Assembly (NCBI GenBank): GCA_916610825.1
Contig: OU744448.1
Coordinates: 9,410,650 to 9,474,649, forward strand
Reading direction: 5' to 3'
Length of the DNA stretch: 64,000 nt
Source: Haliclystus octoradiatus
Taxonomy: Eukaryota; Cnidaria; Staurozoa; Stauromedusae; Haliclystidae
Shown: positions 19,255 through 51,689 of the stretch, piece after piece
How the letters are laid out: each line of letters begins with the position of its first letter
Numbering within the stretch: position 1 is the stretch's first letter
Made by a program: the position numbers and the translations under genes
The notes under the pieces: model-generated
What the model was told of the DNA's origin: nothing
What the model saw: only the letters and a program-made list of their open reading frames with translations
Database searches by the model: none

Positions 19255-19970
19255 CTAATTTTCCATTGAACCTCAAATTGATAACATTGAACTATGAATC
19301 TGATATCTTGACAAAAAAAAGAACGCGCAAGGAACAAGAGACTTCAGACATGTATCATACCCTGTTTTATACATAAATATAATATAATCTTAACCTATTA
19401 TCAATCTCCCCTAGAAGTAAAAGCTTCAACTTATCCAAATTTACTTAACATACAGTATGATGCAGATATCTAATAACTTTTGTGATAATCTATACTCTTT
19501 GATGTGATCTTTCTCGGTATCTATAATCAACTATTATAGACCTCTTTATGAAGGAGTCCATGCATATACGCATGTGCGCATGATAATTGATGATAATCGA
19601 TCCATAGACAAGAAGATCATTCCGCTATGTTTTATTCCATTTGAACGATATAGCTCAATGATTCAACTTGTTCAGTACCGAGGCATAACATATATACTTA
19701 TTATACACCGTACAATATAATCTCCATAATTTCTATAACAGCATTCGAAAAGTTGCATGCCGAAATATCAAACCATTTTGTATCAGCTCCTGTGACCATC
19801 ATGCGATTGACCATACCAATAAACATTTATATTGCAATGGCTCTAGTTGAAGGCTCAATGTTCATGCGTATGTGTATACTCCTTCGTGATAAAGTCTATA
19901 TTGATATTTAGTGCAAGATTTCAAAACAATTTCCATAAGGAATCAATATCAACTTAGAATTTGTATTTCA
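19255..19970. other. Intergenic DNA and presumed 3' UTR of the receptor gene
   Basis: No coding exon was recognised. The part next to 19,970 would be the 3' UTR of the minus-strand receptor gene. No clear AATAAA signal was assigned. Confidence 0.35.
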
Positions 19971-20127
19971 TTACAATCCACTTGTCAATGAATGCGGTTC
20001 TATTATTTCAGGTATGTCATTCCGAGATACCAATGCTGGAGACGGAGGCTTGTTATCCGCCATAGGTAATGTGGATGGCGTCTTTGAACTGATATCATCA
20101 CCACTAACATTAAAATCTTTCCGCGAT
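19971..20127 (-). CDS. Receptor cytoplasmic tail exon and stop
   Basis: The acceptor TTTTGCTTTTAG at 20128 joins in phase 2 to the membrane exon and gives KSRKDFNVSGDDISSKTPST. It then runs through NKPPSPALVS to HSLTSGL and TAA at 19971. The tail is about 55 residues, Ser/Pro-rich, without a recognised ITIM, ITAM or kinase. The upstream acceptor at 20182 would give an immediate stop in this phase. Confidence 0.8.
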
Positions 20128-23100
20128 CTAAAAGCAAAATTTTCAAAATCAAAACTCGGAAAACATTTACAGTTTAACATCTGAAAAAAAAATTTTCTTT
20201 CCTGTAGACACATGTTAATTGGAGCACGTTTGTTGACGTGCGGGACTCCAAAGGAACTATTTTTCGATATTCGTTTTCGTTGCGATATCCATCAGTGCCG
20301 CATATACAAGTGTATTTTTTATCGATATGGTGAAAATAATAATAATTATACAAAAGAACACGATGGATTGATTCACAACTGATACCTGTTGAGTCTGCGG
20401 AAATATTTTTAAATGCCAATAACTAAAGTTGAGGCTTAAATACATGGAGTTATTTGGCATGAACCAAAGTTATTTTACAAATGTTTTCTTGAATGGAAGA
20501 TTATACATTTGAGCAAGGTATCTATAGTTGTTTGACATAAGTAACAAAATAAGACTACTAACATAATTATAGTTAGAAAACATCCATCCTCTCCAGCAAC
20601 AATCAATCTATGAAGCATCAATCGATGTCAACAAATATCAGTTCAGTAATGTCAATCGATGTCAATCGATGTCAAAAATTTCAATAAATGTCAATCAATG
20701 TCAATCAAGGTCAATCAAAGTCAATCAATTTCAACCTATTTCAATCAATTCAATTAATGTCTATCCATATTAATCAATGTCAAACAATGTCAACAGATGT
20801 CAATTAACTTCAATCCATGTCAATCACTGTCAATCGATGTCAAGAAATGTCAATCAAAGTCCGATCAAAGTCAACCTATGCCTACCAATGTCAATCAAAG
20901 TCAATCAAAGTCAATCAAATGTTAGTATTATCAGTCGTGGAGCAGAAGTGCACGTCCTATCCGATCAGAAAATTTATCTTGTTTGACACTGCTTCATAGA
21001 TTGACTGGTGCTTAAGAATCAGACCAAGCATTACGCAAATGTTTTTAACAGACGAAATGTTATTTGGCTGTCGTTAATAATCACCATCATGTAATTTTCA
21101 CTTACTTCCTTCGACGACCGACAATAAAAATGAAACAGCAGCAAGTTGCTATCAAAATCAACCCACCGACAATTGGAGTAATGATGATGATTACATCATC
21201 GATTTTCTCTGTCAATTGAAAGGTAAAACATAAAATCTTAGCTTCAATAACCTTGCATGGAACTTTGTATCATAGAAGGCAACTTTCTTAAAAGTCAACA
21301 ATGCAGTAAGCAATGAGTACTCTCAATATTATGGGAAGTATGCTCAATACTGTAATAATTACTGCAGGTAGCGTGCTTTTAATTTTTCTAAGTGGCACTG
21401 TAACCCTACATAGGGAAGGAAAATTTGGATGCAACCATAATGTACAATGCATAATAGATAAGTAATTAAACATTTTATCCATTGGATAACCAATTAGATG
21501 ATCAATTAGGCTCAACTAGATCCTTTATTGAAGGATTGGAAAATTTCAGAAGTCACAATACTTATGCTTAAATTCATGTCCATGAAAGTTTATAATGGAT
21601 TAATGTTCAATTTCAAAACAAATTAATTCTCTTTTGTCCAAAGTGAATGATGTTCCTGTCACCTACCCCGCCACAGAATTATAATTTTGACTTGCGCCCG
21701 GTGCCCAATTTCCTAGTTTCTTTAACTCGATTTTTGACCTTATGATTTTTTTATCCATTAGAACAATAAAATGGAGAACGCAATTCAACTTTCAAAGTTT
21801 CATTTTATATTGGACCAGTCTAACGTACTTCATTCATACAATGAAATTAAAACCAAACACTCACTGAGATTATCAGAAATTTTTCCTTCGCTAGTTGGTA
21901 CAAGAGATACTGTGAAAAAGAAAAATATGTATTACAAACAAAATCGCAATCACGTAACCTCCAATAGTTTGTAATTAAATAGCTCTATAGACTTACCAGA
22001 GTTCATATCCATCGTAGAAACGTATGGTGAAACTATAAAAAAGAAGTCGAAGCCTTCAAGTTTGTAACATGATCGATTAGAGCTATATTACTAATATTGT
22101 GACAATCTATCTAGTAAATTTATCATCGTTTAACATTTAAGCCAGGTGGTCTAGCTGTACCAAGTGAAATAGATGTTAACCAGTTAGTGATGGTCTATCG
22201 CAAAGTAACTACACTGTCTAAGGGATTTTGAAAACTTATGAAAATTGAATTGAAAATATATGTCAATTTTGCTTTGTGCATCAGGGGAGATCAATTTTCA
22301 GAAATTATGGAGAACGCAGTAAAATTTCACAGCAGGCGATAATTAAGACCCAAAATTTCCATGTATTTTATGATCAAAACAAAGAAAAAGTTCGACAAAT
22401 TTAAAAATCCTCTTGATACTATAAAATTTCAAAAGAATTTGGAAAAGGCACCATTTAAAACATGAACTGTCCTCCCGATATAGTCGATGTATGGAAGTGA
22501 ACTCCCAGGGATGAATTTGCAGCTAATAAATTCGCTGAAATAGTCACTGGTTCGTTTTAATAGTCTTCCGTTCACTCACTGATACTGATTAATTTTACGA
22601 AACCTTGGTATCAACACCTCGTCAATTTTCCAAATTGCATACAGTAATTGCAGCCACAGTCGTAGATACCATAGATTGCATGTATAAATTAATGAACACA
22701 GAAAATATCTTGAAAAGCAATAGAGCTCTCGAATGAGCTTGTTGGCAGTTTCCGCTTCCGACTGTATGAAAACAAATATATTTTATATAGGAACTTATTT
22801 CAAGAATCGATACTGTGAAAATGCTAACAAAATGCTGGAGTTCATTTGAGCACTCGACCTCGCCATAATTTTTCCAGCGTTTGGAAATGAATTATAAATG
22901 TGGCTTAAAACAAGCCATTTTTGCTTAAAACAAGAATTTTTGCTTGAAACAAGCTGACTATTCTTGCAAAATGAAATTTTTCCTGTCATGCAAGGGAGAT
23001 TATGCCTAAATGGAAACACGACAATAACTAACGTGCTAACTCTTGCATCTCTTTTAACTAAAAAATAAAAAGCGATAAGGATGCATAATGGTTGGTAATG

Positions 23101-26100
23101 TTTGTACTCAATTTTAAAAGGGGAGACGAAGTTGTCCCTTGTATGCAGTGTATATGATTTGTAAAACGTAATTCAAGTTGACAATTGTCAGTCTAACATG
23201 ATAATTGTCTTACCTGTCGCTGGTAGGTAACAAGTAAATCCGTTCCCAATCATAGCACTGACACATTGACATGTATAAGAGAATTTTATGTTCTGACATG
23301 TTGCATTAGGTGAGCATGTATTGTTCATAGTCAAGCATTCATTCAAATCTAATTGAAAACAGGATTATAACAGGATAATAATATATATACAATAATATAC
23401 AACGGAATAATACTGAAGGCACTGGATACTATATAGGAGACCACATGACATGTAATATAGCATGTAAAAGAAGATAACCCAGTTTAGCTAAGTTCTAATA
23501 GTAAAAATTGAATAGATCATTCTGGTTGACGTTAAATCTAAGATCACCTAATTTCATTGATTTCATTTTTGGGGGATTTTCAAAATCAATGCAAGAGCTA
23601 TGGGCCCAAAAGTTGAATCTTACTATGATTGGTTAAGAGAACAATAATCGCAATGAGATCACAGTATAATGTGTATTTTGTGTTTGCTGTGGTATTTCGC
23701 GATTATCTAAGCGATTTAGAACGAAAACAGTCACATATAGCATATCATGTGAAAGATACCGAACAGCCTTTATTTTTTCGAATTTACCCTTTGCTTTGCG
23801 TACCGAAAGAAAATGTCATTTTCCGCACCTATCTCGTTTTGCTTTTTTGGGCCGATATGCTACAGAAATGCTTCGTTGCGACGTCAGTAGGTTAGGGTAT
23901 TTGGCAAAGTGGATGATTTTTCAAATAATCTAAGCTAATCATACGATTTCCCATTCCTATCTTGATTCTGATTACATTTGGATCACAAGTCTTTACGATG
24001 GAAGATACAAATTTAATTCGTCCCGTGAGTTCTATCATGTAGTCTTCATACTTCTTCAAATCCAATTCTACCCTACCAAAGAACATCATTTTAAAGACGT
24101 TCGAATATTGAACGACATTGTGTGCGGGAGTTCACTCCTGGGACAATAGTTCTTGACTAGCCATCGCCACATCAACATATCGCTTGAGCTCAACATCCGT
24201 CGCCTTTGAGTTAAGAATTTTATAGAATTAGCTCTTAGTTTAGAAGTATTTGCGTAACATGATTTTGGTGTTACTGTTCTTTATTACCTCGTTTATATAA
24301 CATAAGATTGATAATGCTATTATTTCGCTTCTGTCAACGGCTAGCATGATGATTTTGTCGTCTCCTAAATTGATTTGTGTAAAGGAATTTGATATACAGT
24401 CCTCTTAATAGCACATTCGTTCACGTTCTTCTTTCAGGCAGCAATTAGGGATGTTAAGTTATCACAGGAAGCGTTCACATTTTAGACAATACACAACTGT
24501 TTATCTCACCGTCAGCATGTACTTTTAAGGGATCAACCTGAATAAACAAGGTTTCGTTTTTATCTGTCAAAGTATAACCAATCTTTTCCATGATGTTAGT
24601 TAATGAAGATGAAGTTTCCGAAAGATTTCCAGGAAATGATCCATTCAAATTTATTGACACTGTTACGTTTGGGTAACTAGAATAGAAATGAAAATATAAC
24701 AATATGAGCATCGTCATTAACCGGTATAAAAATCAATTCAGTAATAAATTTTGCAAAACAAACAAACTGACTGCCAGTATTCAAATGGAATATAGACTGA
24801 CTGCATTATTTTTCCTACAAATGGTTGTTACCATTGAGTATTGTATATTTAACCAAAACGCATTCAAGGCCATGCTCATTGGTTAATAAAGAAAAATAAT
24901 GACCAAAGATAAACATCAATAGATTGGATACCCCAGTCAGGGTATGTTTAAAGGAGAAACATTGACAGGCGGTGGCTACGGGCTCAACTTGAATTAAGCT
25001 TAGCCTAAATTCAACGATCAATGTTAGTCATTGTTTCGGCATAGCTTCAAATTTCAAGCTTCAGCATGGTTTCAGGCAGAGAAACAATACGTACGACAAT
25101 ACGAACGTAACTCTCTAAACGTAACTGTTCATGTTTACCCCCTTCAAATGCAGATTGAAATTATTAAGCCACAATGATAAAAACTAAGTTGGAATTGACG
25201 GATTGCATGAATATCAACAACTTACCTTACTGCAATTATATCGGAAGACAGGAACTGTTTTGATATCGATTCATCTTGATATATAATTGCTTCAAACTGA
25301 AAAAATAATGTTGCAGCAATAGAATCATGTAGCTAGGTGTAACTATATCTGATCTCCGTGTCTAACAGAAAGCAACAATCACAGTAATACTCTGTGCAAC
25401 AAAACGGGAGTAAGGATTTTTCCGAGACTCAGTTTTTATAGATTAGTCGCATGCAAGTTAAAAAAAAAAACATTTAAATGAACTGCGGAGATTTCTAAAT
25501 ATAATTGGTACAGAGGAAACTGTGTTAAATAAAGTTTGAAGGGGCAAAATTGACCGGCGACTGCTGCGAGCTCAAGTTGAATTTATGCTTAGCGTAATTC
25601 AACCGTATCGCTTTGAAACTATTGTTATACGCGAGCCTAATTTGTTATGAATTCATGTCAGTAATGAACGTTGCGTTGTAAATAATAAACATGCACGTGA
25701 TCATATAGGTGCGTAGTGCCTCCTGGTCATTTTTGCTCCTTTAATTCAAATAATATTATAAGTTTTACTCATGGCTTGATGGCTTTATTGTAATTCAAAA
25801 TACGTGAGCACAGTTTGCATCAATGAGATGACGGTATATTGTAATAAGGGCGTTTACATTCCGAGTATATAGCTCTACAATTTTCTTGAACTTATGGCAA
25901 TCCTCTGTGAAAAGTCTTTTAATCGATCGAGTTTGATTTTTGAATCGTAAAGTGTATAATTAATCTGAGGGTCCTATAAATTGCCTAAATTTCCTACGAT
26001 AAATATGGATTTGCTTGATATAGGGAAATTAATCTTACTCTCCAAGCATGATTGCAAGCCAATTTGATCTGAGAAAGTTTTATAAATTCAACATAACCTT

Positions 26101-29100
26101 AGATAGGTTCTGAATTTGTTGAATTACCTTGAACCCTTACTAAACATGAACATGCATTAGTTATCCCTGTGTTTATATCAAATAGAAGCTCAAATCATTT
26201 GTCAAATGGTTTAAAAACTCACTGATGATATCACAGCAAATTTAAATTGTCTATACTGCTGTGGTGTCTCATCTTGAAGTTGTGCAAACGCTTTCTCGTT
26301 CATCATACGATTCTTGTAGAAAAGCCGATCTAGTTTGATATTTACTTGGATTCTTGAGATATCTACAAAGGAAGTATAATTAATGGAAAATCAAAATTAT
26401 GGAAAATCCTGAATTAAAATAATATACTATTAGAACTGTAGACAAGAAAATTTGCATTAAGTTGCAAGTGGATGTCAATTAATATTGTATAACAATGTGA
26501 AGACACTTAAGAGTAGAAACGTTAAAAGAAGTTCATGCTTCATTATCTTTATTTGGCTTGGTCTCTCAGCCACTGTCAATTCGATGTATGAATGCAGCCA
26601 TTGATAAATATGGAGTCTTACGTTCTTCGCATCGTTCACCTGTGTGACCAGATAAACACAGACATACATCAAACAATCCAATACTGGAGCAAACACCACC
26701 TGAAGAACAAGGTACTCTGCAAGGCGCTACTGTGACAGAAGTGGTTGATGGCATATCTATAATAGAAAGCAGTCAGTGATGCTTGAGGACATAATGTATC
26801 ATTTCTGAATATTCCTTTTTTAAAACTGGTGACTATTTGAAAGTTAAAATCATTCAGTTTGTGCTTCAATTTTGATGTAAATTTGTGATTCTCAATTTGA
26901 GCATTATATAAGATTAATTTGAATAAAGAATAAATCATACTTGCAAATAAATTTGCTGTGACAATGCAAATGTCATATAGATGTAAATATATGTAATTAA
27001 CTTGTTTACTTATCCGGTAAATGAGTTATGTATTATTCATGCTTCTGATACTTGAATTGGGCTTATACAGTAGTGTCATTACTAGATCGGGTACTAGATA
27101 TTGCTTGATAATGCTAATTGCCTTGTGGAATCATATAGTTTTGTCCTTGTTTATCACGGGATGTTCAATGATAAGCTATAAATGGGGTACTGCTAAACTT
27201 AATCTAATTTTGTTCAACTGTAGTCTGCGTGCAAACTAAAAATGTTTCTTATGAAAAGTGTGACGTATGCGTAGCGGACCCAACAAAGCTGTTTTGCTGA
27301 TATTGCTTTAGATTGATGTCGACTTATGAAACCTTAATTTCCTGTCTCAGTTGTGTGAGTGACGATCACGTTTACATGATAAAATTTATAAAATTATAAT
27401 AAAACCCCAAACATTGCATTTGAATCATTCAATAGCTTCTCCACGTTCGCACGTACAAAATACTTGCAGCTTTCCCGGCAGCTTCAAATAAAAGACTGTG
27501 TGATTGGAAAATGGAAAGAGCATGTGTGATTTCACCGAGCGATCATGATTGATTGGGGGAGATCCACGGGAAGATCCCTCGCAAACAATAGCAGCGATGA
27601 CGTAAAGCCACAAAATGAAAATATACATTTTGCTTTGATACGAAGAGTACAAAACGAAAATGAAATAGCAAGCCAAATAAAAACACAGATCATAAAACGG
27701 TGATTCGAATGATACTACTTTCGAACATTGTGATAGAGAATTGAGAGAGTTATTAGGGTGCATACGTTTGAAGTGACTCTCTTTTATATTGTCTATAACC
27801 CGAAAAAGAGTTGGTAACTTTTGGTCGATGTTATAAAATACCAATGTTATGGCTATATTTGAAAATCTTCTGTTGAATTTGGACAGAGATACTCCTACTC
27901 GCTCACCAACAACTGTTCTATTAGTTATCCGAACGTTTGAAAAGGATTGATACAAAAAACCACTTGAAAATAAATCATGAGTTGTCAAAAGCTTCCTTGG
28001 AGTTTCCGTTATCTGGTTGAGCTATAACTTGAAAAGTCCAGTTAATTTCAACATTACTTGCATGGTTTTAAAAACAAATTTAATTAGTTTTCAATTAATG
28101 TGCTGTATATTTTCACATCCTTGAAATCTGTTGAGATTGCCGATTGGATTTGGAAGTGTTCCGATGTTTTTTTATTACATGATTGATATACCAACAATCC
28201 CATTGGCTGACATTGAATCAAAATCACGTGATCAAAGCTAGCCAATATGATTGAGCTACTGCTTTTGCAAGTCTAGTGCAGTGTCAGAAAAGTAACTTTG
28301 TAGGGTGAGCTACACTACGCCACGATAACTTCAGTAAAGTATGAATGATCCATTTCATTCCAGAGATCTCTATAATTGCTGAATCATCAAACCATGAGTT
28401 CAGAAATGGGTAATGACGTATTAATTATAATATATGAACTTACCCACAGCAGGAGATGATGGTGTCATTTCTAAACTGAAATGTTGGGAGCTTGAAATAT
28501 CAATGGAGGTAGGGAAAATTGTAGATGTTAATAAACCTTGAAAGAAATAGCAAACCATTTTACGGTTATATATAATAGTATATAAAAACACATTTTATGC
28601 AACAAATTAATTAGAAATTGGCACATTGTTTGGCATGAGCTTTTGCTTAGCGCAGAAAAGGGAACGTATAAGTAAGGAGAAAAGGAGAAGACATCACAAA
28701 TCACGAGCCACAGTGGTAAGTGATTTTTCTCCTTGGGTAATTAGGCAAATCTGTTTTTGTCAGACGTATATTGTTCATGTTTGAAACAGTATAGTGAATT
28801 GCGATAAAAGATACGTAACATTAAATGAAGTCTTGCGAAATTAAACTGCGTTGCTTTTGTTCACTTTCTTTTGCGTTGAAGAAATTTTTAATGTTTTGAA
28901 GAATCCTTGCCGAAGACATTTTCTTTGTCAAGGGCTCCTTGATGAAGCCAAAGGCTGATTTGCCCTGGATGCAGGCCGCAAGCCGAAAGCTTGATATATA
29001 TAAAAATGCACTGATATGCGAGCAGTGAGCATTCTGAGTAATGTATTGAGTTAACTTCTATGGTTGTAGAAATGTATTAAATCTTACTTTCCAAAGATGA

Positions 29101-32100
29101 TGTTCCAAAATGATAAAAACCCAATGTGGCTGGAAATGTTGAAACTGAAAACGTTGAAACACTGCCAGTGATCGGAGTACCTAAATGTAAAATCAAGCAA
29201 ACAAAGATCATGTAAAAACTCTAGCCTGGCGTCTGAATAAATGACGAATGCTTGTCCAAGATAATTCAACATTCAGACTAATAGTAATGATATTAATAAC
29301 AATTAATATACCTTACTAGTAATGGTCATTCTCGGGGTCATTCTCCAACGTTGCTGAGTTAATCTTGTCTGTTTTAATTTTACAGGAACTAACTTGTTGA
29401 TAGGGTGTTATTTTAAATGTTGAAAGCAAAACACAAGGCCAAAATCAATTTTTAGCTGGAAAGTAGCACAAATGTTTATAAGTATATACGTTTGTGTGTT
29501 GTTGTTGTTTGATATCAAAAGTAACAAGTATGCTTTCTTCCACTCGTTATATAAAGCAAATCAAAAATCTAAGCCTGTCCTAGCCACGAATGAAAACATC
29601 GATTCTAATGATATATAATTCAAACTTATTGTTTGAAAACTGGTTAAGAAAACAGAAGAAAACTGGACCGCACACACCCACCACTGTATAGACGATAAAT
29701 TGTAAAACTATGAGTTTATCGAGCAAGTTTTCAGAACAAGATCAACGACTTTTGAGCTCTTATTGAAAACCAGATTGAATTAAAATTATATACTCCTTCA
29801 CTCTGTAGAGCCTCAGTTTCCAGCATATATACCAAGGAGCCTCTGTCTGACACTCTGTCACTATGCTACAATAAAACTACGGCAGAACTTTTTTCATGCA
29901 TTTCCAAAATAAGCTGTGAAATCATTGTACCTCTTATTGACACTAGTACTTGATTGGATGATGTAGAATTTGCTTCATTAGTTGCTATACAGCGATAAAC
30001 ACCATCATCGTCTGTTGACAAGGAAATCAAACGCAGAATATCTCCATCAGAAGGAAATAATATACCATTTTTATTCCATTTTATAATAGGCTGTGGATAT
30101 CCATTTGTTGAACAGTGCAATACTAATGAGTCTCGATACTGTACGGTGACCACAGCAGATGAATTAATACGAGGCTGATCGAGATCTGAAAAAAGTAAAG
30201 AAGCAAATGATGAATCAGCCATGTTTGCTGTTATTTAGAAATTTTAGTCCGAATTGTAGCCTTGTAAATTGGCAAGAATTTGAATAATATTAAAGCAATA
30301 TTGTTAAGGGTCTGCAGTGCTTTAAGTTTTGCTAAATATTGACAACAGATTTTATTAGGCTTGGTTATTGCTATATTTTCTAAGCAAACTCTATAAATAG
30401 CTGTAAACAACAGTGGTTTTCCTTGTTGTTTTCTTTGGAAAATAATATAAAGATTCAGAACGGCTCCGTTTCCCTATACTGTTTGAATCTTAATCACGAG
30501 CTCTGAAATAAACAAATTTGAATATGATATGTAATCACTTACAATGGAGGTCAAATCCAAGAAATTCAAATGTTCTTCTATTTTTGGGGGAATTATTACA
30601 TGATATTATGACAACTGGGATTTGGATGACTACTTTAGTTAATCAATTACGTACATATAGCATTCACGTCAAACGGTTGAGCATTTTTCTCTCCAGCCGA
30701 ATTCTTAGCGGAACAAAGATATTTTCCACTTTGTGATCTTTTCAAAGGTTTCAAATACAAGACACTAGCTAACGAGACAATATTGTTCTGTGGATTCACC
30801 CATTGGACCGAGGCACTGGGTACTGCATTGATTTCACAGAGTATTGTGATAGCATCTCCTTCGCGGTACGGCATAGATGAAATTGATCGAACAAGAGGGT
30901 CATCAATATCTACAAGAAACAACACAGCCTCACAACACAAGAAAAAATATGCGTGGGTCTGAATTTTCTAGGTGCAGTCACGCAGCCAATATTGACACAG
31001 AGATGTAAAGTCTTGGTATAGCACCAAAGACTTCCAGTTCGGCCCTCAAACCCAGTAACGTGGGTAACTCATTGCTAGTAACGAATATAGGAACATGTTG
31101 GATGAGTAATTAGATATGAAAGAGGCTTGAAAAGTCACGAGCCATCAGGCGGGTGATTTTGGCCTCTAGTTGTCACAATCACATAGCACCCTGTTGCTAT
31201 TTTGTTGCGTTTGGAGGGAGGTTTGGAGGTTTAAGCTAAAAGCCGTAGTTTTACGATTTTCCGTAGCCTGACACAAACATCAACAACAACCAATCAGCGA
31301 TCAGTTTCACATTCGATGATTTTATAAACTGATTGATGATGATATTGACCATCGGCTGTTGATGTCTGTACCAGTAATCTGTATATATTAATATTCAGAA
31401 TGATGACAGAGCTAGATCGTTAAAGAGAAAATTAATAGTACGTCATTGTAAGTTCAGGGTAATTAAATTGGCTGTAAGACTAGCACAGTAAGGTAATCGG
31501 ACAAAATTGATTCTTAATAGTCAGAAATTTAATTGAACAAACCTATCAATTATGTGTAAGAATGTTGTGACTATTCAAATATTTGTGTAACTTACATTCA
31601 ACTGTCACACTTGTGTCCCTAGATTGTTTTTCACCATTTGAATTTTCTGCCATACATTTATACAAACCCGACTCGTTCCTCTTGGCATCATTAAATTGAA
31701 GCATTTTACTATTACGGATAATTATTTTGCCATTCTTTAACCAATTAATTGTAACTGTTGGATAACCAGTAACGGAGCATATTAACAATGCTGATTTACC
31801 CTCCAGGATGTTGAGTGATGAACCATTAGAAATTATGGGTATAGATAGATCTAATAAAATCAATAGATAATAATGTGATTTACATAAACAATGAATGATA
31901 TCCACAATTGAGTCGTCATACATTCTTCAATTATTGGAGAAAAATAAAGTAAAATGTATATCTTAACCTATAATTAACAATTATCGAATAAGATGAGCAC
32001 GACAGTGAGAGTTATCAGTCCGAGGTGACACGCGCTGAGGCCCGATAAATTCTCAGTGTCATGCGATTTTGATAATTGTTTTATTATTAACCCATACCCT

Positions 32101-35100
32101 TATTAATCCCATGAAATATTCAAGAACAACTGCGTTTTGGCAAATATTACGAACTCATCGCAAAAAGTTTGTTTAAATATGACTTCATAATTTACAGACT
32201 TTGACACTATTGATTTGATTAGGGGAAGACTTGAACTTCTAATTTCGTAAAATTATAATCATAAAATTATGTTATACCTAACAGAGTGGGTAACATTTGC
32301 TAGTACTATAACATATAAAATAATAGTACTATATTAGTAATAATGATAATAATATACAAGCCGTTTAAGAGAGTGCTCGATACAGTGACGTAGAGCTATT
32401 ATAAATGAAACAGATTAGTCAAGTTTTACTGGGTTTTATTGACTCTGAGTTTCGCGCTTATGCGCTCTTCAGATGGGATACATTTTATGAGAATAGATTC
32501 TTCCTGAAGAGCGCAGAAGCGCGAAACTCTGCAGATTCACGGTAATACTTGATTGATATTTTTTTCATTACTATATATACATTACTGAGTTTTCCCATAC
32601 ATCCATGCATTCAATTAGCACAATTTATTATACAACAGCTCGTTACATTTCAACTATTAATGTGAGGCTTGGAGTCTTTTTGATAATCAAACTGATTGAT
32701 GCATATAAATGCTTTAAATACTTTGATGTAACTTACTTACATTCAATCGTTAGTTCCAAAGGCGAGGATATTTTGGTTGTCAGCTTAGTACTTGTCTCAC
32801 ATTGATATTCACCACTGTCTGCTAATTTCAAGTTTTCGAGTTTCAAAATAGCTGAATCTCTCATAATGTAAATCTTTTCTTTCAGCCAATTGATTCTAAC
32901 AGAAACAGAAGAAGATAAGGAACCAACGACCTCGCATGAAAGTGTGAGGGAGTCCCCTTGTTTTCTTGAAATTGACGAAGTGGCATTGATACGAGGTACA
33001 TCGATATCTGCAAGGCATGTTAATTTCAAATTTCAGTATAAGAATGTATGACACGTTTGGAAATAAAATCTTAAATAAAATCATCAAGTCATGTTCAATC
33101 TTTTACAGATTCCTTTCCAAAGGAGAGTTTCCGCGTTTGTGGGGTGAGTTGAGCAGTGTACATTATTTGAGGTTATTGATCACTCAAAATGAACACGAGT
33201 CATGTTTGGCAGATTTGTTACCATGTGATTTCCAGCTATGTCATTACTACTCAAAACCAGAGCCATCTATTTACAAGAGTTGGGACACTTCTGCAATTTT
33301 TGTATCTTTTTGCCTGGACCCGAGCATGTTTTTAACAGTGCGCATGTGCAGGAGAATGTTGTGTGTTTTATCAGCCATATTGTATTGTATTTTTTCGCGC
33401 GTTTCACTTGAAATGATTGAGAAACTGTTTTCAAAAGAACAAAGATGGCATCCAAAAATCAGTGCCCCAACTCTTGTAAATAGATGGCTCTGCCCAAAAC
33501 ATTTCATGGAAAACATTGAAATTATATGGGTTTTCGTTGCTAGGTCGGGTATAGCCCACACCCGCACTGTATATACCTGACAGTTGTTACTCAACAGATC
33601 AACTGTTGAAAAAAAATACAAATAAAACGGTTTTCAGACAAGACATTTACATTTGCTCTGTAATTGAAGTTCAACTAGCAAAAATACGATAAAAGCAGCA
33701 TCTTGGGAATCGGGATATTAATGAAAATATTGCAAATTAATAATTTAAACACTTCAAAAGTTTGTAAAACTCTGAAATTTGGACTCTTTGCGTTCTGGTT
33801 TTGATATTTTGCAATGATATGATGTTTTAATAAAACCTGATGACCCATGAAATGAGAAAAAATCATTGTTGTATAGCAAAATTGATTTGCAACAATTTAA
33901 ATTCCACACAAAGACTTGAATGAAATGTTACTTGATTATTTAAATGATTACATCAAATGATTTTGTAATACAACGAAAATGATTCGAATACTCTGATTGG
34001 TTTAGAGTTCGCCAAATCACCATAGCAAAACTACGTTCGAAAACACAATCGATCTTGCAATTCGAACTTTATATCACAAATGAGAATTTCCAATTTTATC
34101 AGTAGTTTTCAAAAGCTCTTCGTTAGCAAGAAAGTCAATTAAATGCTTATAAAAGTAGTGCCAGTTATAATACAAACAAATTGGCGCATAGTTTCCTATG
34201 AGCTATTGATATTTGGCTGACTTGAGTCACTTCAGGAGAATACTCAAAGACGAAAATTACTCGCCGAAGCGCTTCTACTTTTTTGATGCTTTCTCGTTTT
34301 TTCCTTACGTGCCTCTTGTGCGCCAAATATCAATAGCTCATAGGAAACTGTGCGCCAATTGCTCAATAGTGACTATATCACTCGGCTTTTTCAAATCAGC
34401 CATATTGGTGCTGCTTAACAATATATACCAGGGTCACAGTCTTTTCAAAATACACCACCGGGATTATCAATCTTTTCTTTAAATAATTCTCAAGGGAATC
34501 ATTATGCACCTGTGAAAAAGATCTGTTGTTCGTGGGTCATCGAATTTTAGATTCATTCGTTCTCAAACAACAACCGAGAAATCCATATCGTAATCATTTA
34601 ATTATATGTTATCATATGATTATTATAAACTGATTAATTATGAATAATTTTCAAGACATGCTTCTATGTTCCATATACACTTACATGTAACAATGAGTTT
34701 TGAGCTGGTGGTTGTCACATCCTCAAGCCCACAACTATCTTTGACTGAACACTCAATCAAGCTATTATTCAATTCTCGAGTAACATTTCTCACTTGATAA
34801 TTTGATACATTAGATCCAGTTTTAATAACATTTCCATTTAATTTCCAGGTGAAAATCGGAAAACGATAATGTGAGATTTGACTGCAAACAATCTCGGTGT
34901 TATCATGCTCTTCGACTAACACATTGCTTCCTTGTCCAATAACTGGCGTAGAATGAATATCTGGAAATAAATTAAGATTCCTCTCGATATCTATTATGAA
35001 ATTACTGTAACTGATGATGACATCTGCATGACAATAAAAAACTATTCTTAAATCGGTATACCTGCTCTGCGCTGTACTATTAAACCATGATAATTATTAT

Positions 35101-38100
35101 GTATTCATATTAGTAATGATTCCACCAAAGATAATTCAATACAGTTTAACCATCAAGGCCTTTATTACGATTATCTTGACAGCTATAGAAGTTGGAATCG
35201 TTTTTCTAGAAAGCAATCTACCAGCTACTTACTTGCACATCCAAATAATTGAAATCTACCACATATCTTATTATTCCATGATCGAGGCTTTATAAAGATC
35301 GCAGATGCATTGATGAGTTGATCAAACCAGATATAGGTGACATCAAAGGGGTTGAAGACGCCAGCATAAATCTTTCAGTTGAAATATAAAGGTCAATAAA
35401 ATCATTTAAGAATCAGTTGAAAAAAACTCGAGTAACGATTGGTGGATTTGTACCATGGCAACCACTAAAAGCGTGCAGGTATAGGTCTATACCCGCACGT
35501 GTGCAGTTATAGACCTATACCTGCACGGTTTTGAAAATGGTGACAAGCTGCGACAGATGGAATATTTTTTCAGAATCAAATTAAATGTACACTCCGTAAT
35601 TAAATATTCAACTTGAGAAATTCAAAAAGTAACAACTTGGGACTTGCTATATTCGAATGTAACTCTTATTTTATTTTTAATATTGCACATATGTTTGAAA
35701 AACAATTATGTTGAAATCTCCCCGTCATATTTTGAAATGATATTCGTAAGAATTTCATTCCAATTGTATTTAATGAAAAATCAATGACCCATTAAATTAG
35801 AAAACAAATCATTGTTTTAGTGAAATTGATGATAGATAATTGATGTTCCAGACAAAGTTTATGCTACATGATTATTAAAATGATTATATCACTCTTTGTT
35901 CGTGGGCCATCGAAATTTAGACCCACTCGTTCTCTAACAACAAACTCGAAATCCATATCATAAACTCGGCGGCCTCGTTTACGATATGGATTTCTCGTTT
36001 GTTGTTAGTGAACTCGTGGCTCTAAATTCCGATAACCCACTCACAAGAGTGAAGTAATCCCTCAATAAATTCATAGTTTTGTTTCATGCTTCATATACAT
36101 ACTGATAAATGACTAATTTAACGCACAAGCTGATTTACTTGGGTGGGTTTATAGCCAAGTTCAAATCACGCTTCATTAATCAGTAGACACATGACTTCGT
36201 CAGGATGAATTACAACACAGTTATAATTAGATATAAACAGGTGTAGTAGATTGAGACGGTATTGCCCTACACCTAGTGATGTTAACTGCTCCTTATTTTG
36301 CATTCAGGTGCGATACTGCGGATCAATGTCAACAGATTTCATGGTAGATACTCGTCGATTGTCAATGTGCAACGATTCGCTGCAGTTACTCATAATCCAA
36401 ATCCCTCGGTACAATTCCATTCGCCATCCTTGCTTGATATTTTAGATAAAGTCAAGATTGAGTCCCGCTGAGTTGACCTTTGGGGGATTTGAACGACAGT
36501 AGATCAGATATGATAAGATCTGAAGCTCGGCTACTCTGTCATCTGAGCTAATCCTCCTATCAACAGGCGTCAGATGTCGAGCGATGTCAATCATGCTATG
36601 AATTCGTGATGACGTCAAAATGAAGCCGTTTGTTTGATGAGTGGCTGTAAGTAGTTTCCTATCGAAATATAGATTCTGCATGTGAGCTTTTTATAGAATT
36701 ATATGTTGCTATATTCAATCATGTATTGTGTCTTATTGAATCAACCCAGTTTTCGAAAAATGATTTGAATTATTATAAATTATAATTTATTTTTATCAGA
36801 AAAACATCCAATCATCTCAAGGAGATTTAAAGAATACAAATTCATAATATTCAATGTTTACTCACGTCTGTTGTATTTCTCAGTAATGTATTTTCAATAT
36901 AATCAACAGCAAATGATGTAATGAAGTTTTTACCATTCAAATTGGCTTGTATAGCAATACCACTAATTAATGTTTCTTTTACTAAGTCAAAGCGTATAAA
37001 TTGATTCATATCATTCACAGTTGTACACCACGAGCTACCAGAGTATAGGAAAGGTTTGATTTCACCGTTAGTTGAAGAGCTTGATGAAGATACTTTGGCT
37101 ATGGCACTGGAGATTGATAATTCATCGAAACATTCTATTAATGCAAACAAAGAAACAAGGTTCTTTCATTTACATCTGCATTAACATGCTTCAAATCATA
37201 TACCGTCAAGTCGCTGGATCTGCAAACTTCAAAAAGTCAGAAATGAACAGTAATATTGGCAAATTGATCTTTATGGAAATTATATGTAGCTGTTGAAAAT
37301 TTCGTAAGATCTCATGGTTGTGAAATTTTCAAACATGTATTTATAACATGCCTATATATAAATACGTCTGGTAATTGTACTTTGGATATGTAGAGGGACA
37401 AGGCTATTTTTGTTACCCGATGTTTGCCTTTTTATTTCCCGTTATTCGTGACTTTAATACCACATCTCTCGTGAGACAGTTAACTCACATACCCCATGTG
37501 GCATAGATTCCAAATCGTTGTTGGCTTTTCATTATATTGTACTATATATTGCTGAAATTCTTTTACCGTGAAGTTCGTTTCTTACTTTGTATCACACTTG
37601 CATTGACAATATAGTATAACATGAATGATCTCAACTTAAAACTTCTTAATTAAACATTTACAAACTACATGAACACACTTTCAAGTAAAATGAAATAGTG
37701 CAATCTATTAGATTCCATTAGAATATAAGGAAATTAAGTTTGGAAATGATCGAAAACGAGGTCAAAATTGGATGATAACGCTCAGAAACCTCGCTTCGCT
37801 CGCAGGAAAATTCTATATGCCAAATAGTTACATGATTAGATCCATATACCATTGTTTTGGGAAAACATTGGCCAAACATATTGTCAACTGCTAATCTTAG
37901 AAAAGTTTTCCTTTCTAACTCTTTTATTATCATAAATTCGCACTCACTTTTCACACTAGGCAATATTTTGAAATATATTTCTCATCCAACATTATAGATG
38001 TCTTTTTTAGGACACGTCGAGAGAGCACAGTCATATGCTCTATGGCCACTGTATTAGATCCTTCACTGCTTCTTTGTCAACTATGTTTGACCGTGATATA

Positions 38101-41051
38101 TGGCGTTCTTTATTTAGCAAATATATTAAAGCTGATGCTAAGCACATAAGGACCGGCACATTCCTATAATGTGACTGTATGTACTACTGTACTAAACTAC
38201 TACTACCACTATGGCCACTGTTTACATTCTATCATCTATGCAAGAGATGTAACTTACTTGTTGAATAGCCATATAATTCAACTTTGCCACAAAATTCTCC
38301 TGATCCAAAAGCTGTTAGTTTTGGGTATAGCCTGATTAATCTTGTCTTGATTGGTTTTGGCAATTGGTTGTAAACCGGTGGCGATGAATGAAATGTATTG
38401 CCAATAAATACCTAGCATACATGGAATCAAACAAAAACAACCAATATGCAGGATTAATAAATTTGCCCTTCTAGCAATTTCAGCCTAAAATAGATCAATA
38501 TTCATTGGATATTTGACTATTATCAAATGCGCACTGTCGTTACTTGGCCTGTAAATAGTTATGATTTCATGACATCAATAGGACGCATTCCAAATGGATA
38601 TCCTTACCTTCGGCCTGCCAATTTCATCAACAACATCCTGCAAATTGGTAGAAGTATTACCATATTTAATATTAAATTCTCCGATCTGATCTTTGAAATC
38701 ATCGCCCTGTACAGAAACAGCAGCTACAGTACGAAGCAATAATAAATCAATTTGCAACCATTCGTTTGTTGAAGCTGCTGCACACCATGCAAGCTTCGAA
38801 TCACTATTTAATCTTGCAATAAAAGCTTTTGTAGTCGTGTACTTAATAGATGATGAAGTCATTTGGCTGTTTCTTATTAGTCCATTTTTCACACCAAGTG
38901 GATATGTTGATTTGCAATAAGCAGAAGCTATAGATAAAAAGGAAGCAGAGATCAGTCTGAGATAGATTCAAAAATATAAATCATCAAAGGCTTTGCTAAG
39001 CAATTCCAATGCTGCATTAAACATCTTTCAGAAAATTTTAATTTTGACTATCGATCAAATGAAGGTGTCTGAAATGAGGGTACCCATAAGATTAAACCCA
39101 TCGCAATACAATTGCTCGACGCAAGTTTTTATTGCTAGCAACAACTTATCCTCTTTTGCTGACAATAAATTTCACGCAACTAATGACTTGAAATATCATG
39201 CCCTAATTGTCATTCAAGTAGAAATTAGAAGCCATATTTATTCAATTAGGATGTAGACTATTTTAAAATATGGGGACAGCAGTTTAAAGCTCTGCATGCT
39301 ACATCGTAAGAAACTAAAACATTAATTATTGAGAAATGTTAATGAAATTATGGAGAAATTAGTTGACATCTAACATTATCGCGTATATTTCCAAACACCA
39401 AGTAATGCATGTTTATTTTTATACTCTGAAATTATAAATATCCAGAGCGCTGTTTATATACATGTATAGCTAACGTATAGGTGATAGGTCTACAGTTAAG
39501 GTTTTTGAAATATTGGAATTGAAGCAGGTGAACTATTTTACCTTTTCAACTATAATAATATAATATAATATGAGGTGAACACATGTATGTGAGAGTGCTC
39601 AATGTTTGTTAAGACAGAGCATAATATATAGAATAGACACAAAGATGAGGCAAAAGCCATTTCCGTTACTCGGAGTTTCACGCGTATGTTTTAATTTTTT
39701 AGTAAACCGTCTGACGAACGCAATGTAAACGCGTGAAACTCCGAGTAACGGAAAAGGCTTTTGCCTCATCTTAATTGTGTCTATTCTACCTATTCAACTA
39801 TAATTATATATTCTGCTATGCATATCAAAGTTATAATATAATTTTCATAATCAATTCTCACATCTATAACGCGTAGCTTATGAAAAACGATCCATCAAAG
39901 CAGTTTTCATCATGCAAAGTGACGTACATACCTACTCCTTTACCGCAGCCGTAGAATTCCATTCTCGCACACACTTTTTTCGTTATTTGGTTTTCTCCGC
40001 TAATCGTATATGCACGAAAACGAAAGATGCGACTTGTTATTCTAGTTGGTATTGCATTGAAAACAACATCGTTAAAAGATAATATACCGGGAAATATCTA
40101 TAAAAGATCGTAAAAAATAAAACAAATTAAATTGATGGATGAGCTTTTATATGTATATGTCAAACAACGAGATATTTTATCCAATTGATATAATCTATAA
40201 TGAATGTCTATAATAAGCAAATAATCAAAGATCATAACATTCGCTAGATAATTGCAGTTGTATCTAACGGGCTTTGTTCTTTCCGAAATTAGTCGTTGCT
40301 TTGCGTAACGAAAGAAAATTGGCTTTCACGCATCGATTTTGTTTGGCTTTTCGGGACCACCATGCTTAAGACATGCTTCACTGGGTCATTGAGATCAAAA
40401 TTCACATGCATTCTCCTATTGAATGTTGCACATTTCCCAATCAGTAGCACAAAGTCAGACAGTAGAAACTTTCCACATTAATTATGTTTTTTTCTTTACA
40501 ACACTCGTAGATAAGAAACAAACGAAAAATGTCGAAGCAAGTTAACATTGAGAAATCTCGCTGGGTATTAAATAAAAACATTGGTATAGATGTTTATTCT
40601 ATTTAATTAATTAATTAAAAACGTTTCGTAAATGTCAACACTCTCCGATCTTCAAACATTTCATTCACGCGTTGTTTTGTAACATAAAACCTCGATCGTT
40701 CACTACACCTCTGTACATATAATTATCACCATACCGTGGTAACTCCTTTCTCTGTTGCATTTTTAAAAACAATTCCATCATGACTATATTGTAGGAAATA
40801 ATTTGTCACATAAAATAATTCTTCCTTGCGATTTGATTGAAGTAGTAAAGCTGTGAGTGTGATATTCACTTTAAAATCAATTTGTAACCATTCTGATCTC
40901 CAATCTAAACGCCCACCGCTACACCAGCCAGAATATATATCTTTTCTTCCATTAGCTGCAGAAAAACCAACGGAATCGGAACTACTTGATAACTGTTCAT
41001 TTCGTATAAAACCATCAGACATACCAAGAGGTAAATATTCATCACAACCAA
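19971..41051 (-). CDS. Single-pass receptor: 3 discoidin, 5 Ig, stalk, EGF, SEA-like, EGF, TM, tail (first exon not found)
   Basis: 21 coding exons were joined by hand, in transcript order: 40735-41051, 39932-40097, 38608-38927, 38258-38411, 36866-37134, 35233-35371, 34685-34960, 32741-33007, 31596-31850, 30655-30909, 29931-30185, 29088-29180, 28444-28536, 26622-26756, 26223-26362, 25226-25296, 24510-24676, 23214-23348, 21997-22032, 21106-21208, 19971-20127. They total 3,803 nt and stay in one frame to the stop, about 1,267 residues. The domains predict a cell-surface adhesion or recognition receptor. A phase-1 acceptor precedes the first visible exon, so a signal-peptide exon must lie upstream; none was identified. 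I do not recognise a named orthologue. The structure is well supported; the function is inferred from domains only. Confidence 0.85.
20601..20930. repeat. Degenerate about 10-bp minisatellite (TCAATCAATG type)
   Basis: Dozens of imperfect copies of a unit close to GTCAATCAAT or GTCAATCGAT are strung together with a period near 10 bp. The array lies in the receptor intron between the membrane exon and the tail exon. Confidence 0.8.
21106..21208 (-). CDS. Receptor transmembrane exon
   Basis: A 103-nt exon, phase 1 to phase 2, encodes VIIIITPIVGGLILIATCC followed by CFIFIVGRRRK. This is a single hydrophobic span with a basic stop-transfer end, oriented as type I. Confidence 0.93.
21997..22032 (-). 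CDS. Receptor 36-nt juxtamembrane microexon (probable)
   Basis: A TTTTTTATAG acceptor and a GTAAGTC donor bracket 36 nt that are symmetric in phase 1 and open in the required frame, encoding SPYVSTMDMNS. It would link the second EGF to the membrane span. Because it is symmetric, it could be skipped without changing the frame. Confidence 0.55.
23214..23348 (-). CDS. Receptor calcium-binding EGF domain 2
   Basis: A 135-nt phase 1-1 exon encodes DLNECLTMNNTCSPNATCQN then YTCQCVSAMIGNGFTC. DLNEC and the Asn followed by an aromatic segment (NIKFSYTC) match the calcium-binding EGF consensus. Confidence 0.93.
23780..23895. repeat. Dispersed repeat, copy also at 40,290-40,395
   Basis: CTTTGCGTACCGAAAGAAAA at about 23,794 matches CTTTGCGTAACGAAAGAAAA at about 40,299. 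Diverged similarity continues for about 100 bp on both sides (ATGCTTCGTTG against ATGCTTCACTG). No coding potential is credited. Both copies lie in introns of the receptor gene. Confidence 0.5.
24510..26362 (-). CDS. Receptor SEA-like domain, three exons
   Basis: Exons 26223-26362, 25226-25296 and 24510-24676 join in phases 0 and 2 to give about 126 residues between two EGF domains. ISRIQVNIKLDRLF opens it, followed by FKFAVISSFEAIIY, SYPNVTVSINLNGSF and FIQVDPLKVHADG. The length, position and pattern of long hydrophobic strands fit a SEA domain, but no GSVVV-type autocleavage site is visible. This call is less certain than the EGF and Ig calls. Confidence 0.6.
26622..26756 (-). CDS. Receptor EGF-like domain 1
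   Basis: A 135-nt phase 1-1 exon encodes six cysteines in APCRVPCSSGGVCSS and VCLCLSGHTGERCEE. The CLSGHTGERC end is the classic EGF C-terminus. There is no calcium-binding consensus. Confidence 0.93.
27425..27628 (-). CDS. Possible small secreted protein nested in a receptor intron, 67 aa
   Basis: From ATG 27628 the frame encodes MYIFILWLYVIAAIVCEGSS, which looks like a cleavable signal peptide, followed by about 47 residues with one NHT glycosylation site and CTCERGEAIE at the end. It lies in the intron between 28444 and 26756, on the same strand. The frame is open for 187 codons, but the upstream part lacks an ATG. There is no recognised family, and a chance open frame is quite possible. 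Confidence 0.25.
   Translation of the reverse strand: MYIFILWLYVIAAIVCEGSSRGSPPINHDRSVKSHMLFPFSNHTVFYLKLPGKLQVFCTCERGEAIE
28444..29180 (-). CDS. Receptor Ser/Thr-rich stalk, two 93-nt exons
   Basis: Exons 29088-29180 and 28444-28536 are each exactly 93 nt and symmetric in phase 1. They encode ITGSVSTFSVSTFPATLG and LLTSTIFPTSIDISSSQH, which lack Cys and are rich in Ser, Thr and Pro. They probably form an O-glycosylated spacer between the Ig array and the membrane-proximal EGF-SEA-EGF unit. Confidence 0.75.
29931..30185 (-). CDS. Receptor Ig-like domain 5
   Basis: A single 255-nt phase 1-1 exon, the same length as domains 3 and 4. LVLHCSTNGYPQPIIKWNKN and DDGVYRCIATNEANS define an I-set fold. 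Confidence 0.93.
30655..30909 (-). CDS. Receptor Ig-like domain 4
   Basis: A single 255-nt phase 1-1 exon. ITILCEINAVPSASVQWVNP and QSGKYLCSAKNSAGE define the fold. The donor is GTACGT after ATA T. Confidence 0.92.
31596..31850 (-). CDS. Receptor Ig-like domain 3
   Basis: A single 255-nt phase 1-1 exon. ALLICSVTGYPTVTINWLKN and ESGLYKCMAENSNGE are typical of an I-set domain of the kind found in neural adhesion molecules. Confidence 0.93.
32447..32529. repeat. Near-perfect 26-bp hairpin
   Basis: GAGTTTCGCGCTTATGCGCT at 32447 continues to 32472 and is inverted at 32504-32529 with one mismatch in 26. The loop is about 31 bp. It lies in the receptor intron between Ig domains 2 and 3. The ends resemble the hairpin at 39,631-39,786. 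Confidence 0.7.
32741..33007 (-). CDS. Receptor Ig-like domain 2
   Basis: A single 267-nt phase 1-1 exon. LTLSCEVVG, INWLKEK and the canonical LADSGEYQC identify an I-set Ig domain. Confidence 0.92.
33258..33492. mobile_element. hAT-like MITE, second copy, 235 bp
   Basis: It has the same termini as the element at 6,005: CAGAGCCATCTATTTACAAG at the start and its inverse at the end. Flanks CTCAAAAC and CCCAAAAC are an 8-bp target duplication with one change. Its left half is similar to the inverted right half of the 6-kb copy, so it is an internally deleted, oppositely oriented relative. It lies in the receptor intron upstream of Ig domain 2. Confidence 0.85.
33980..34480. repeat. Dispersed repeat with internal inverted repeat, related to 6,890-7,232
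   Basis: CTGATTGGTTTAGAGTTCGC and CACCATAGCAAAACTA match the sequence near 6,968. CCAAATATCAATAGCTCATA matches that near 7,066. The second motif also appears inverted at 34,180-34,215, forming a stem of about 36 bp with 34,323-34,360. No transposase is present. Confidence 0.6.
34521..34597. repeat. Half copy of the palindrome at 35,891-36,053
   Basis: GTTCGTGGGTCATCGAATTT and GAGAAATCCATATCGTAA align with one arm of the palindrome about 1.35 kb away. The other arm is absent here. It is intronic. Confidence 0.5.
34685..34960 (-). CDS. Receptor Ig-like domain 1
   Basis: A single 276-nt phase 1-1 exon. Cys in TEIVCSQ and Cys in SLIECSVKD are the disulphide pair, with the core Trp in FTWKLNGN. 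The canonical DSG.Y.C motif is replaced by LNNSLIEC, so it is a diverged Ig fold. Confidence 0.85.
35233..37134 (-). CDS. Receptor discoidin-like domain 3, two exons, diverged
   Basis: Exon 36866-37134 carries SSWCTTVNDMNQFIRFDLVK and GIAIQANLNGKNFITSFAVD. Exon 35233-35371 carries IYAGVFNPFDVTYIWFDQ and CGRFQLFGCA. The usual N-terminal PLGM segment is replaced by a Ser-rich run (KVSSSSSSTNG), so ligand-binding loops may differ. It has the same phase-0 split as the other copies. A SINE lies in its intron. Confidence 0.85.
35472..35527. repeat. Perfect 20-bp inverted repeat
   Basis: CGTGCAGGTATAGGTCTATA at 35472-35491 is repeated in exact inverse at 35508-35527 with a 16-bp loop. It lies between the tail exon of discoidin domain 3 and the upstream SINE. 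Confidence 0.75.
35891..36053. repeat. Long palindrome, arms about 75 bp
   Basis: The left arm includes ATTTAGACCCAC, TAACAACAAAC and GAAATCCATATC. The right arm repeats them inverted as GATATGGATTTC, GTTTGTTGTTA and CTCTAAATTCC. Only about 10 bp separate the arms. It is a snapback MITE-like element in the receptor intron. Confidence 0.75.
36252..36557 (-). mobile_element. tRNA-derived SINE, diverged copy
   Basis: On the minus strand, an A box (TTAGCTCAGATGACAGAG) and a B box (inverse of GGATTTGAACG at 36485-36495) head about 300 bp that match the SINEs at 42,181 and 57,066, including CCATGAAATCTGTTGACATT. It has diverged more than the other two and is not flanked by a microsatellite. Confidence 0.8.
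37995..38165 (+). pseudogene. LINE C-terminal fragment
   Basis: AGATGTCTTTTTTAGGACAC matches the minus-strand LINE end near 51,390 and encodes MSFLGHVERAQSYA, against [14 protein letters not shown] there. FDRDIWRSLFSKYIKADAK follows in another frame. It is broken. Confidence 0.5.
38258..38927 (-). CDS. Receptor discoidin (F5/8 type C) domain 2, two exons
   Basis: Exon 38608-38927 carries YPLGVKNGLIRNSQMTSSS, AWCAA and EWLQIDLLLLRTVAAVSVQG. Exon 38258-38411 carries VFIGNTFHSS, PIKTRLIRLYPK and CGKVELYGYS. This is the most canonical of the three copies. The internal split is in phase 0 at the same place as in domain 1. Confidence 0.92.
39631..39786. repeat. Snapback element, about 60-bp arms
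   Basis: GAATAGACACAAAGATGAGG at 39631 returns inverted as CCTCATCTTAATTGTGTCTA up to 39786. The arms include CCGTTACTCGGAGTTTCACG and its exact inverse. The loop is about 36 bp. Sequence just outside (CAACTATAAT) appears on both sides as a direct repeat. It is intronic in the receptor gene. Confidence 0.75.
39932..41051 (-). CDS. Receptor discoidin (F5/8 type C) domain 1, two exons
   Basis: Exon 40735-41051 begins CDEYLPLGMSDGFIRNEQLS and contains WLQIDFKVNITLTALLLQ, the core of an F5/8C fold. Exon 39932-40097 completes it with TRIFRFRAYTI and RMEFYGCG. The two are joined in phase 0 and flanked by phase-1 introns. The upstream open frame that looks like a signal peptide starts with TTG and overlaps a good TTTATTTTAG acceptor, so it was not included. 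Confidence 0.9.
40290..40395. repeat. Dispersed repeat, second copy
   Basis: Diverged copy of the repeat at 23,780-23,895, sharing CTTTGCGTAACGAAAGAAAA. It lies in the intron between the two exons of discoidin domain 1. Confidence 0.45.
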
Positions 41052-51650: not shown

Positions 51651-51689
51651 GGAAATGATGTAGGCACTGTAATTATAATTACGTAGCAT

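Follow-up and report, generated by a model that had tools for sequence, protein, structure and literature searches.

Analysing a window of 64,000 nucleotides (the whole stretch of DNA considered here) from the stalked jellyfish Haliclystus octoradiatus, we identified on its minus strand a gene that probably encodes a single-pass type I adhesion or recognition receptor, the shortest one that we saw of what is probably a family, with one or more discoidin triplets followed by an Ig array, an EGF domain, a SEA-like region, a second EGF domain, a transmembrane span (TM) and a tail. A role in adhesion or recognition is predicted as likely, in support of the receptor type put forward in a first-pass annotation of the same window. 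The modules are all known ones, but we could assign their arrangement to no named family: neither Pfam, NCBIfam and the PDB rows listed (60 of 246) nor the open-licence literature searched yielded a named family or published protein with them in this order. That the order is unusual, as first annotated, holds in so far as no named family matched it, but the gene probably does not stand alone, since triplet head and end pattern recur on contig C2.

Gene model and domain order

The minus-strand chain comprises 23 exons between 44239 and 19971, with GT–AG borders throughout and phases that fit at all 22 joins; the final model starts with the ATG at 44239, ends with the stop at 19971 and has 1294 residues and no internal stop, and its predicted product is a membrane protein of type I. 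Behind the signal peptide, three discoidin domains (D1 to D3), five Ig domains (Ig1 to Ig5), Ser/Thr-rich stalk, EGF, SEA-like region, EGF, TM and short tail follow one another in the order annotated before, which was confirmed exon by exon and with Pfam, the SEA match lying below the cut-off. The consistent frame of the first-pass annotation also stands, but not its count of 21 exons in 19971–41051, where we find 22, and 23 together with a signal-peptide exon outside that span. Every discoidin domain is encoded by two exons (phases 1-0 and 0-1), every Ig domain by one (1-1) and the SEA-like region by three (1-0, 0-2, 2-1). Codon bias favoured the stated frame over both other frames in 22 of the 23 exons, the exception being the 16-codon signal-peptide exon; this run used the longer tail exon of a first model, and each exon was scored with a model trained on the remaining exons. 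Most domain searches likewise used the first model (1337 residues), which differs from the final one in its longer tail alone.

The signal-peptide exon (44191–44239, minus strand, MKEVIILIIYITQKLA, phase 1 out, donor AGGTACGT) is assigned with moderate confidence. Scanning 41051–52000 for a phase-1 donor combined with a hydrophobic core returned two exons with an ATG, both ahead of D1, and the better one was taken; the predicted signal peptide is short and has a lysine at position -3. Long simple tandem repeats with 4-base units were seen by eye at 41745–42190, in the first intron of the gene, and at 51190–51290.

The same exons could be divided among two or three neighbouring genes arranged head to tail (a discoidin gene, an Ig gene and an EGF-SEA-EGF membrane gene), which we regard as very improbable. 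The long introns of up to 3.1 kb would suit such a division, but all 22 joins are in phase, the intron between D3 and Ig1 has just 272 bases, both signal-peptide candidates in the scanned stretch precede D1, and the sole membrane-span-like segment lies at the end of the chain. Moreover, a relative on contig C2 has the same phase-1 join between D3 and Ig1, which argues against separate discoidin and Ig genes, and its Ig matches stop about 0.2 kb short of its EGF1 exon. The single gene of the first-pass annotation is supported by these observations.

Extracellular domains

All exons of the gene are on the minus strand. The discoidin domains were located by exon chain and Pfam (D1, 40735–41051 with phases 1-0 and 39944–40097 with phases 0-1; D2, 38608–38927 and 38258–38411; D3, 36866–37134 and 35233–35371). 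On the joined protein Pfam reported F5_F8_type_C at 1.3e-37 in three stretches, and the domains searched singly gave 1.1e-11, 3.9e-15 and 1e-10; all three exceed the F5/8C cut-off of 28.2 bits, scoring 45.4, 56.5 and 42.3, and so belong to this family. The Ig domains, located in the same way, occupy 34685–34960 (Ig1, a single exon with phases 1-1), 32741–33007 (Ig2), 31596–31850 (Ig3), 30655–30909 (Ig4) and 29931–30185 (Ig5), and their membership of the Ig superfamily follows from Ig_3 at 2.9e-44 (149.9 bits, five stretches); Ig1 searched alone is borderline, its 21.8 bits for the family ig being the same as the cut-off. Ig2 to Ig5 contain two cysteines apiece and Ig1 three.

The stalk, placed by the exon chain on two exons of 93 nt each (29088–29180 and 28444–28536), has about 74 residues, 41% of them Ser or Thr, and is almost devoid of internal repetition, two overlapping 4-residue words occurring twice each. 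It leads to EGF1 with its Ser/Thr-rich lead (26622–26756; EGF_Teneurin 2.6e-5, EGF 0.0017), and beyond the SEA-like region to EGF2, which is of the calcium-binding type (23214–23348; EGF_3 4.1e-10, EGF_CA 7.6e-7). Both EGF domains have six cysteines, and the joined protein gave EGF_3 at 1.6e-7. An NCBIfam search with residues 1–904 returned no match.

Among the 60 of 246 PDB rows listed, D1-D2 aligned with neuropilin-1 (residues 24-314) and, over comparable ranges, with factor V/VIII chains, the Ig domains matched CEA, Robo and contactin chains, and no best stretch spanned discoidin and Ig together. The window protein thus resembles neuropilins and factor V/VIII in its paired F5/8C domains and Robo, contactin, DSCAM and CEA-type arrays in its Ig domains. 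From the former it differs by a head that is a triplet followed by Ig, and from the latter by the discoidin head and the SEA-like base; CUB, MAM and FN3 were absent from its 25 best Pfam families. Neuropilins have the order CUB2-F5/8C2-MAM-TM, and the lack of CUB and MAM among these families sets the window protein apart from it.

The SEA-like region

The SEA domain is the weakest assignment of the chain. It would be encoded by exons at 26223–26362 (phases 1-0; Pfam SEA E 0.002, below the cut-off), 25226–25296 (71 nt, 0-2; an exon of equal length and phase is present in the relative at C2:10.2 Mb) and 24510–24676 (2-1; from the exon chain), and contains no cysteine. Searched alone, the region scored 18.7 bits where the cut-off is 26.4, SEA being the sole Pfam family matched there; the score fell with context, to 16.3 bits in a 277-residue membrane-proximal piece and 13.9 bits in the whole protein. 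The SEA reading is put forward because of this E value, the place between two EGF domains and a G-S that one relative shows where the corresponding exon begins. The matches listed for Pfam SEA across the genome were at two other places, the window gene and its relatives not being among them; a PDB search with the SEA part gave a single chance match (E 1.3), the region at the SEA position of the 10.2-Mb relative had no Pfam SEA match, and the exon-3 frames of both C2 relatives had no Pfam match.

SEA domains with autoproteolysis have a site of the G-S-V-V-V type, and mucin SEA domains often break and re-associate at the G-S bond, cleavage not being universal among SEA domains. No site of this type is present in the window gene, where the exon starts with S-Y-P-N-V; the same exon start reads R-F-S-S-I-Y in the 10.2-Mb relative and A-G-S-I-Y, with G-S kept, in a relative at 3.18 Mb of C2. 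With P-N, S-S and G-S at this point in the window, 10.2-Mb and 3.18-Mb genes, SEA cleavage is therefore predicted for the 3.18-Mb member alone.

Membrane span and tail

Two juxtamembrane exons (21997–22032 and 21865–21909, from the exon chain) precede the transmembrane exon (21106–21208); in the final model, scanning for hydropathy recognised one membrane-span-like segment, at residues 1210-1241 (hydropathy 2.71). The last exon (19971–20127, including the stop) most likely begins at 20127, because 12 of the 18 bases ahead of this acceptor are pyrimidines versus 5 of 18 at 20256; the latter acceptor, which gave the longer tail of the 1337-residue first model, was dropped. The short tail annotated before is retained. 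An acceptor scan (phase 2, at least 11 of 18 pyrimidines, reading at least 25 codons) also returned 20607, 20557 and 20422, leading to unrelated peptides of 29–55 residues, possible alternative tails. No extra exon with phase 2 in and phase 0 out was detected when the stretch from TM to tail was scanned for one.

The tail of about 55 residues ends in HSLTSGL and has neither tyrosine nor an ITIM-type motif, so that the tyrosine motif of ITIM- or ITAM-bearing tails is missing from it. We take the final S-G-L to fit a class I PDZ ligand, a three-residue match that may have arisen by chance. Discoidin domain receptors (DDR) carry an intracellular tyrosine kinase, unlike the window protein with its short tail, the longer form of which had no Pfam match. 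A possible polyadenylation signal AATAAA lies at 19631–19636 (minus strand, 5' base at 19636), with a second copy at 19201.

Surroundings of the gene and the genome searched

Just outside the 3' side of the gene, at 15619–19102 (plus strand), a non-LTR retrotransposon frame was seen, its endonuclease and reverse transcriptase recognised by eye; the frame ahead of it has a weak CCCH zinc-finger match. At 55888–58631 (plus strand) the window contains exons of a methyltransferase gene (Methyltransf_11 1.3e-18), presumably of the TRMT9B/ALKBH8 type, and at 941–1297 (minus strand) a frame that we take to resemble a PAN3-type pseudokinase, the piece tested having no Pfam match.

The genome searched comprised 261,861,806 bases in 33 contigs; the assembly report gives 262 Mb, 33 scaffolds and an 18.3-kb mitochondrial genome (PMC9975415). 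Contig C33 is this mitochondrial genome (18,316 bases), for which ARAGORN, run in bacterial mode, predicted two tRNA genes (anticodon tca and tRNA-Met) in one piece and none in the other. Its gene names could, we believe, be recognised, and the gene order looks medusozoan to us; the frames at both ends we take to be parts of a B-family DNA polymerase. Such parts are typical of medusozoan mitochondrial DNA.

Relatives on contig C2

With D1–D3 as query, the genome search returned 30 matches at E <= 0.001, six of them the window's own exons and the remaining 24 all on C2, none being a close copy of the window head (at most 45%, across a part of D1). At C2:10079000–10098999 three discoidins with the same two-exon phases are directly followed by Ig exons. 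Pfam recognised F5/8C in the three first exons there (2.6e-9, 8.9e-8 and 8.1e-4), whereas the three second exons gave no such match. All 14 Ig-type frames tested matched Ig, one being the second half of a split domain and weak (0.0079). D1, D2 and D3 each matched best the same position of this relative, with scores of 230, 141 and 169 (next best 81, 107 and 102), the identity across D1-Ig1 is 31%, and the join between D3 and Ig1 is again of phase 1; on these comparisons the two triplet heads are homologous. Upstream of the triplet there are a D1-like match at 10073110 and a D3-like match at 10077478, with no D2-like match between them, and a second triplet is therefore possible; the 10.07-Mb locus may thus have two.

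Ig exons continue far beyond the part read. A genome search with Ig_3, for which 150 of 494 candidates were scored so that counts are lower bounds, listed among these 150 a total of 22 matches on the plus strand at 10.09–10.21 Mb; the window Ig domains as query gave 62 matches, five of them their own exons, and nine additional places in the same interval, one of which was left out since it contains stops. If the locus is one gene, at least 43 Ig exons (the 22 Ig_3 matches, the further places and 13 in the part read) lie between triplet and end. The Ig matches extend to C2:10204605, about 0.2 kb ahead of the EGF1 exon, and the end exons at C2:10.2046-10.2096 Mb follow as EGF1, 1-0, 0-2, 2-1 (the SEA position), EGF2 with membrane span (phase 2 out) and tail (phase 2 in), the 0-2 exon having 71 nt as in the window gene. 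Pfam supports both EGF domains, EGF1 just at the cut-off, and the modelled tail has tyrosines, unlike that of the window gene. It should be noted that the long relative was read at both ends only (28 of about 135 kb), so that two or more genes may share the stretch at 10.07–10.21 Mb. Just behind its tail exon, at C2:10209600-10212599, retroelement-like frames (zinc knuckles, protease and a reverse-transcriptase-like frame) were seen by eye.

Further ends of this type were found through EGF_3, whose genome search (482 candidates, 150 scored) returned at least 76 matches at E <= 0.001, nine of them on C2. Three of the nine lie 6 to 12 kb behind an Ig array on the same strand: 10207943 (+), 3179625 (+) and 3196417 (-). 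The latter two follow Ig arrays that face each other, in the stretches C2:3134968-3181199 (+) and 3234719-3196414 (-). Within 5 kb read near 3179625, an exon like SEA exon 3 (2-1, beginning with A-G-S-I-Y-A-F-F), an EGF2 exon (1-1; EGF_3 8.5e-12) and a membrane-span exon (1-2) succeed one another with the phases of the window gene; EGF1, SEA exons 1 and 2 and a discoidin head were not seen in these 5 kb, and the genome-wide discoidin matches include none close upstream of the 3.13–3.18-Mb Ig array. The locus at 3196414 on the minus strand was matched by the end of the 10.2-Mb gene with 33%.

The ends themselves have diverged, those of the window and 10.2-Mb genes being 22% identical. With the window's end as query, its own six exons and five places matching mainly the EGF2 part were returned and the C2 ends were not found; with the 10.2-Mb end, there were 30 matches, five of them its own and including EGF-type places on several contigs (3179610 and 3196414 of C2 among them), and the window gene was not found. 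A common origin of the ends is argued from phases, order and the 71-nt exon, because sequence searches do not link them, and independent or convergent assembly of EGF-X-EGF-TM ends is possible. Still, since one locus shares triplet head and end exon pattern and another Ig array and end pattern, the genome of H. octoradiatus probably contains a small gene family with a variable number of Ig domains.

The triplet may also be a cassette, as a similar head seems to be joined to a different body at C2:13945400–13975399, where fibronectin type III frames come after six exon groups of the discoidin type, which look by eye like two triplets. Of these discoidins, the first two are genome-search matches, the third was recognised by eye alone, and the frames of the last three were submitted to Pfam together with three FN3 frames. 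Scores of the first exons favoured the same position in five of six cases against the window triplet (the sixth tied, 98 to 97) and in five of six against the 10.08-Mb relative; four discoidins of other genes score 34 to 95, and the smaller of the first-exon scores (76 and 78) are therefore not decisive.

Several other loci drew attention during these searches. Clustered discoidin matches resembling triplet positions occur at C2:2.55-2.98 Mb and 4.72-5.25 Mb, and no Ig was recognised by eye in frames of at least 60 residues in three 10-kb pieces of these clusters. At C5:14573000-14582999, discoidin, a weak ricin-type lectin (below the cut-off), Ig, Sushi and EGF stand in series, and the next frames look GAIN-like by eye, so that the locus may encode an adhesion GPCR whose ectodomain is unusual. 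Dense Ig matches at C1:25116052-25138162 (minus strand), many in one open frame of 2831 residues, would at a guess belong to an intron-poor gene for a giant protein resembling titin or hemicentin.

Possible functions and known systems

How might such a receptor work? The discoidin triplet would form a distal ligand-binding head, and the Ig array (five domains here, at least 43 Ig-exon matches in the long relative) could set its reach and perhaps contribute contacts of a lateral or homophilic kind. The Ser/Thr-rich stalk would be glycosylated, EGF-SEA-EGF would serve as a membrane-proximal anchor of the transmembrane-mucin kind, and the tail could use its C-terminal S-G-L to couple to PDZ-type scaffolds, instead of relying on tyrosine phosphorylation.

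The membrane-proximal part invites comparison with the transmembrane mucins MUC13, MUC17, MUC3 and MUC12, which have the order EGF-SEA-EGF-TM-tail, with a PDZ end in the MUC13/MUC17 type. The end of the window protein would have this order as well (SEA below the Pfam cut-off), but differs in missing the G-S motif at the matching exon start, and the protein has a discoidin and Ig head and no long PTS (mucin) domain. Muc13 contains SEA, EGF and PTS, and transmembrane mucins are defined by a PTS domain plus SEA or VWD (PMC1552070); a stalk of 74 residues with 41% Ser/Thr and nearly no repeats falls outside this definition. We therefore do not count the protein among mucins, and a mainly structural function, as an epithelial or pedal-disc adhesin on a mucin-like base, appears unlikely to us. 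An animal that lives on a stalk needs attachment, and base, stalk composition and PDZ-type C-terminus do resemble MUC13/MUC17-type bases; yet the short stalk, with its two overlapping repeated words, and a head of discoidin and Ig with no PTS domain argue against it.

Self/non-self recognition is a second direction. In Hydractinia, Alr has a highly polymorphic ectodomain that controls fusion; for the window gene one haplotype was read. The Alr1 and Alr2 proteins are single-pass IgSF membrane proteins of cnidarian allorecognition (PMC11067881, accessible part), and the window protein is likewise a single-pass cnidarian IgSF membrane protein, but the terms discoidin and SEA domain are absent from the accessible text of that source. 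Among the Botryllus candidates, all of them with Ig domains, fuhc-sec has Ig and EGF and fuhc-tm tandem Ig and TM, fester/FcoR being a further candidate (PMC12065747, accessible part); Ig plus EGF or tandem Ig plus TM are thus shared with the window gene, whereas order and size differ and neither a discoidin triplet nor SEA is described there. A polymorphic allorecognition or immune receptor would accord with the module types, with several loci whose Ig arrays differ in length and with these IgSF precedents. Against it stand a head without a close copy (45% at best, over part of D1), a tail without tyrosine or ITIM and a domain order unlike those described for Alr, fuhc and fester in the accessible parts of both sources, and we hold it to be quite improbable. 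Equally doubtful is the broader proposal of a recognition system of Haliclystus' own, in which a conserved triplet head, an Ig array that exon duplication has brought to lengths between 5 and more than 40 domains, and a shared EGF-SEA-EGF-TM base would serve self/non-self or partner recognition, SEA cleavage being kept or lost by the individual member.

The more general reading, an adhesion or recognition receptor of variable Ig length, remains the one we favour, and we rate its family as a chimeric IgSF/discoidin receptor family, orthologues of which may well exist in other cnidarians. Within one cnidarian genome, the order seems to recur at several loci that differ greatly in their number of Ig domains. 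Provided that they are expressed as modelled, these genes would represent a receptor family that grows via shuffled phase-1 exons in an early animal branch, and they supply candidate proteins for recognition or attachment in stalked jellyfish.
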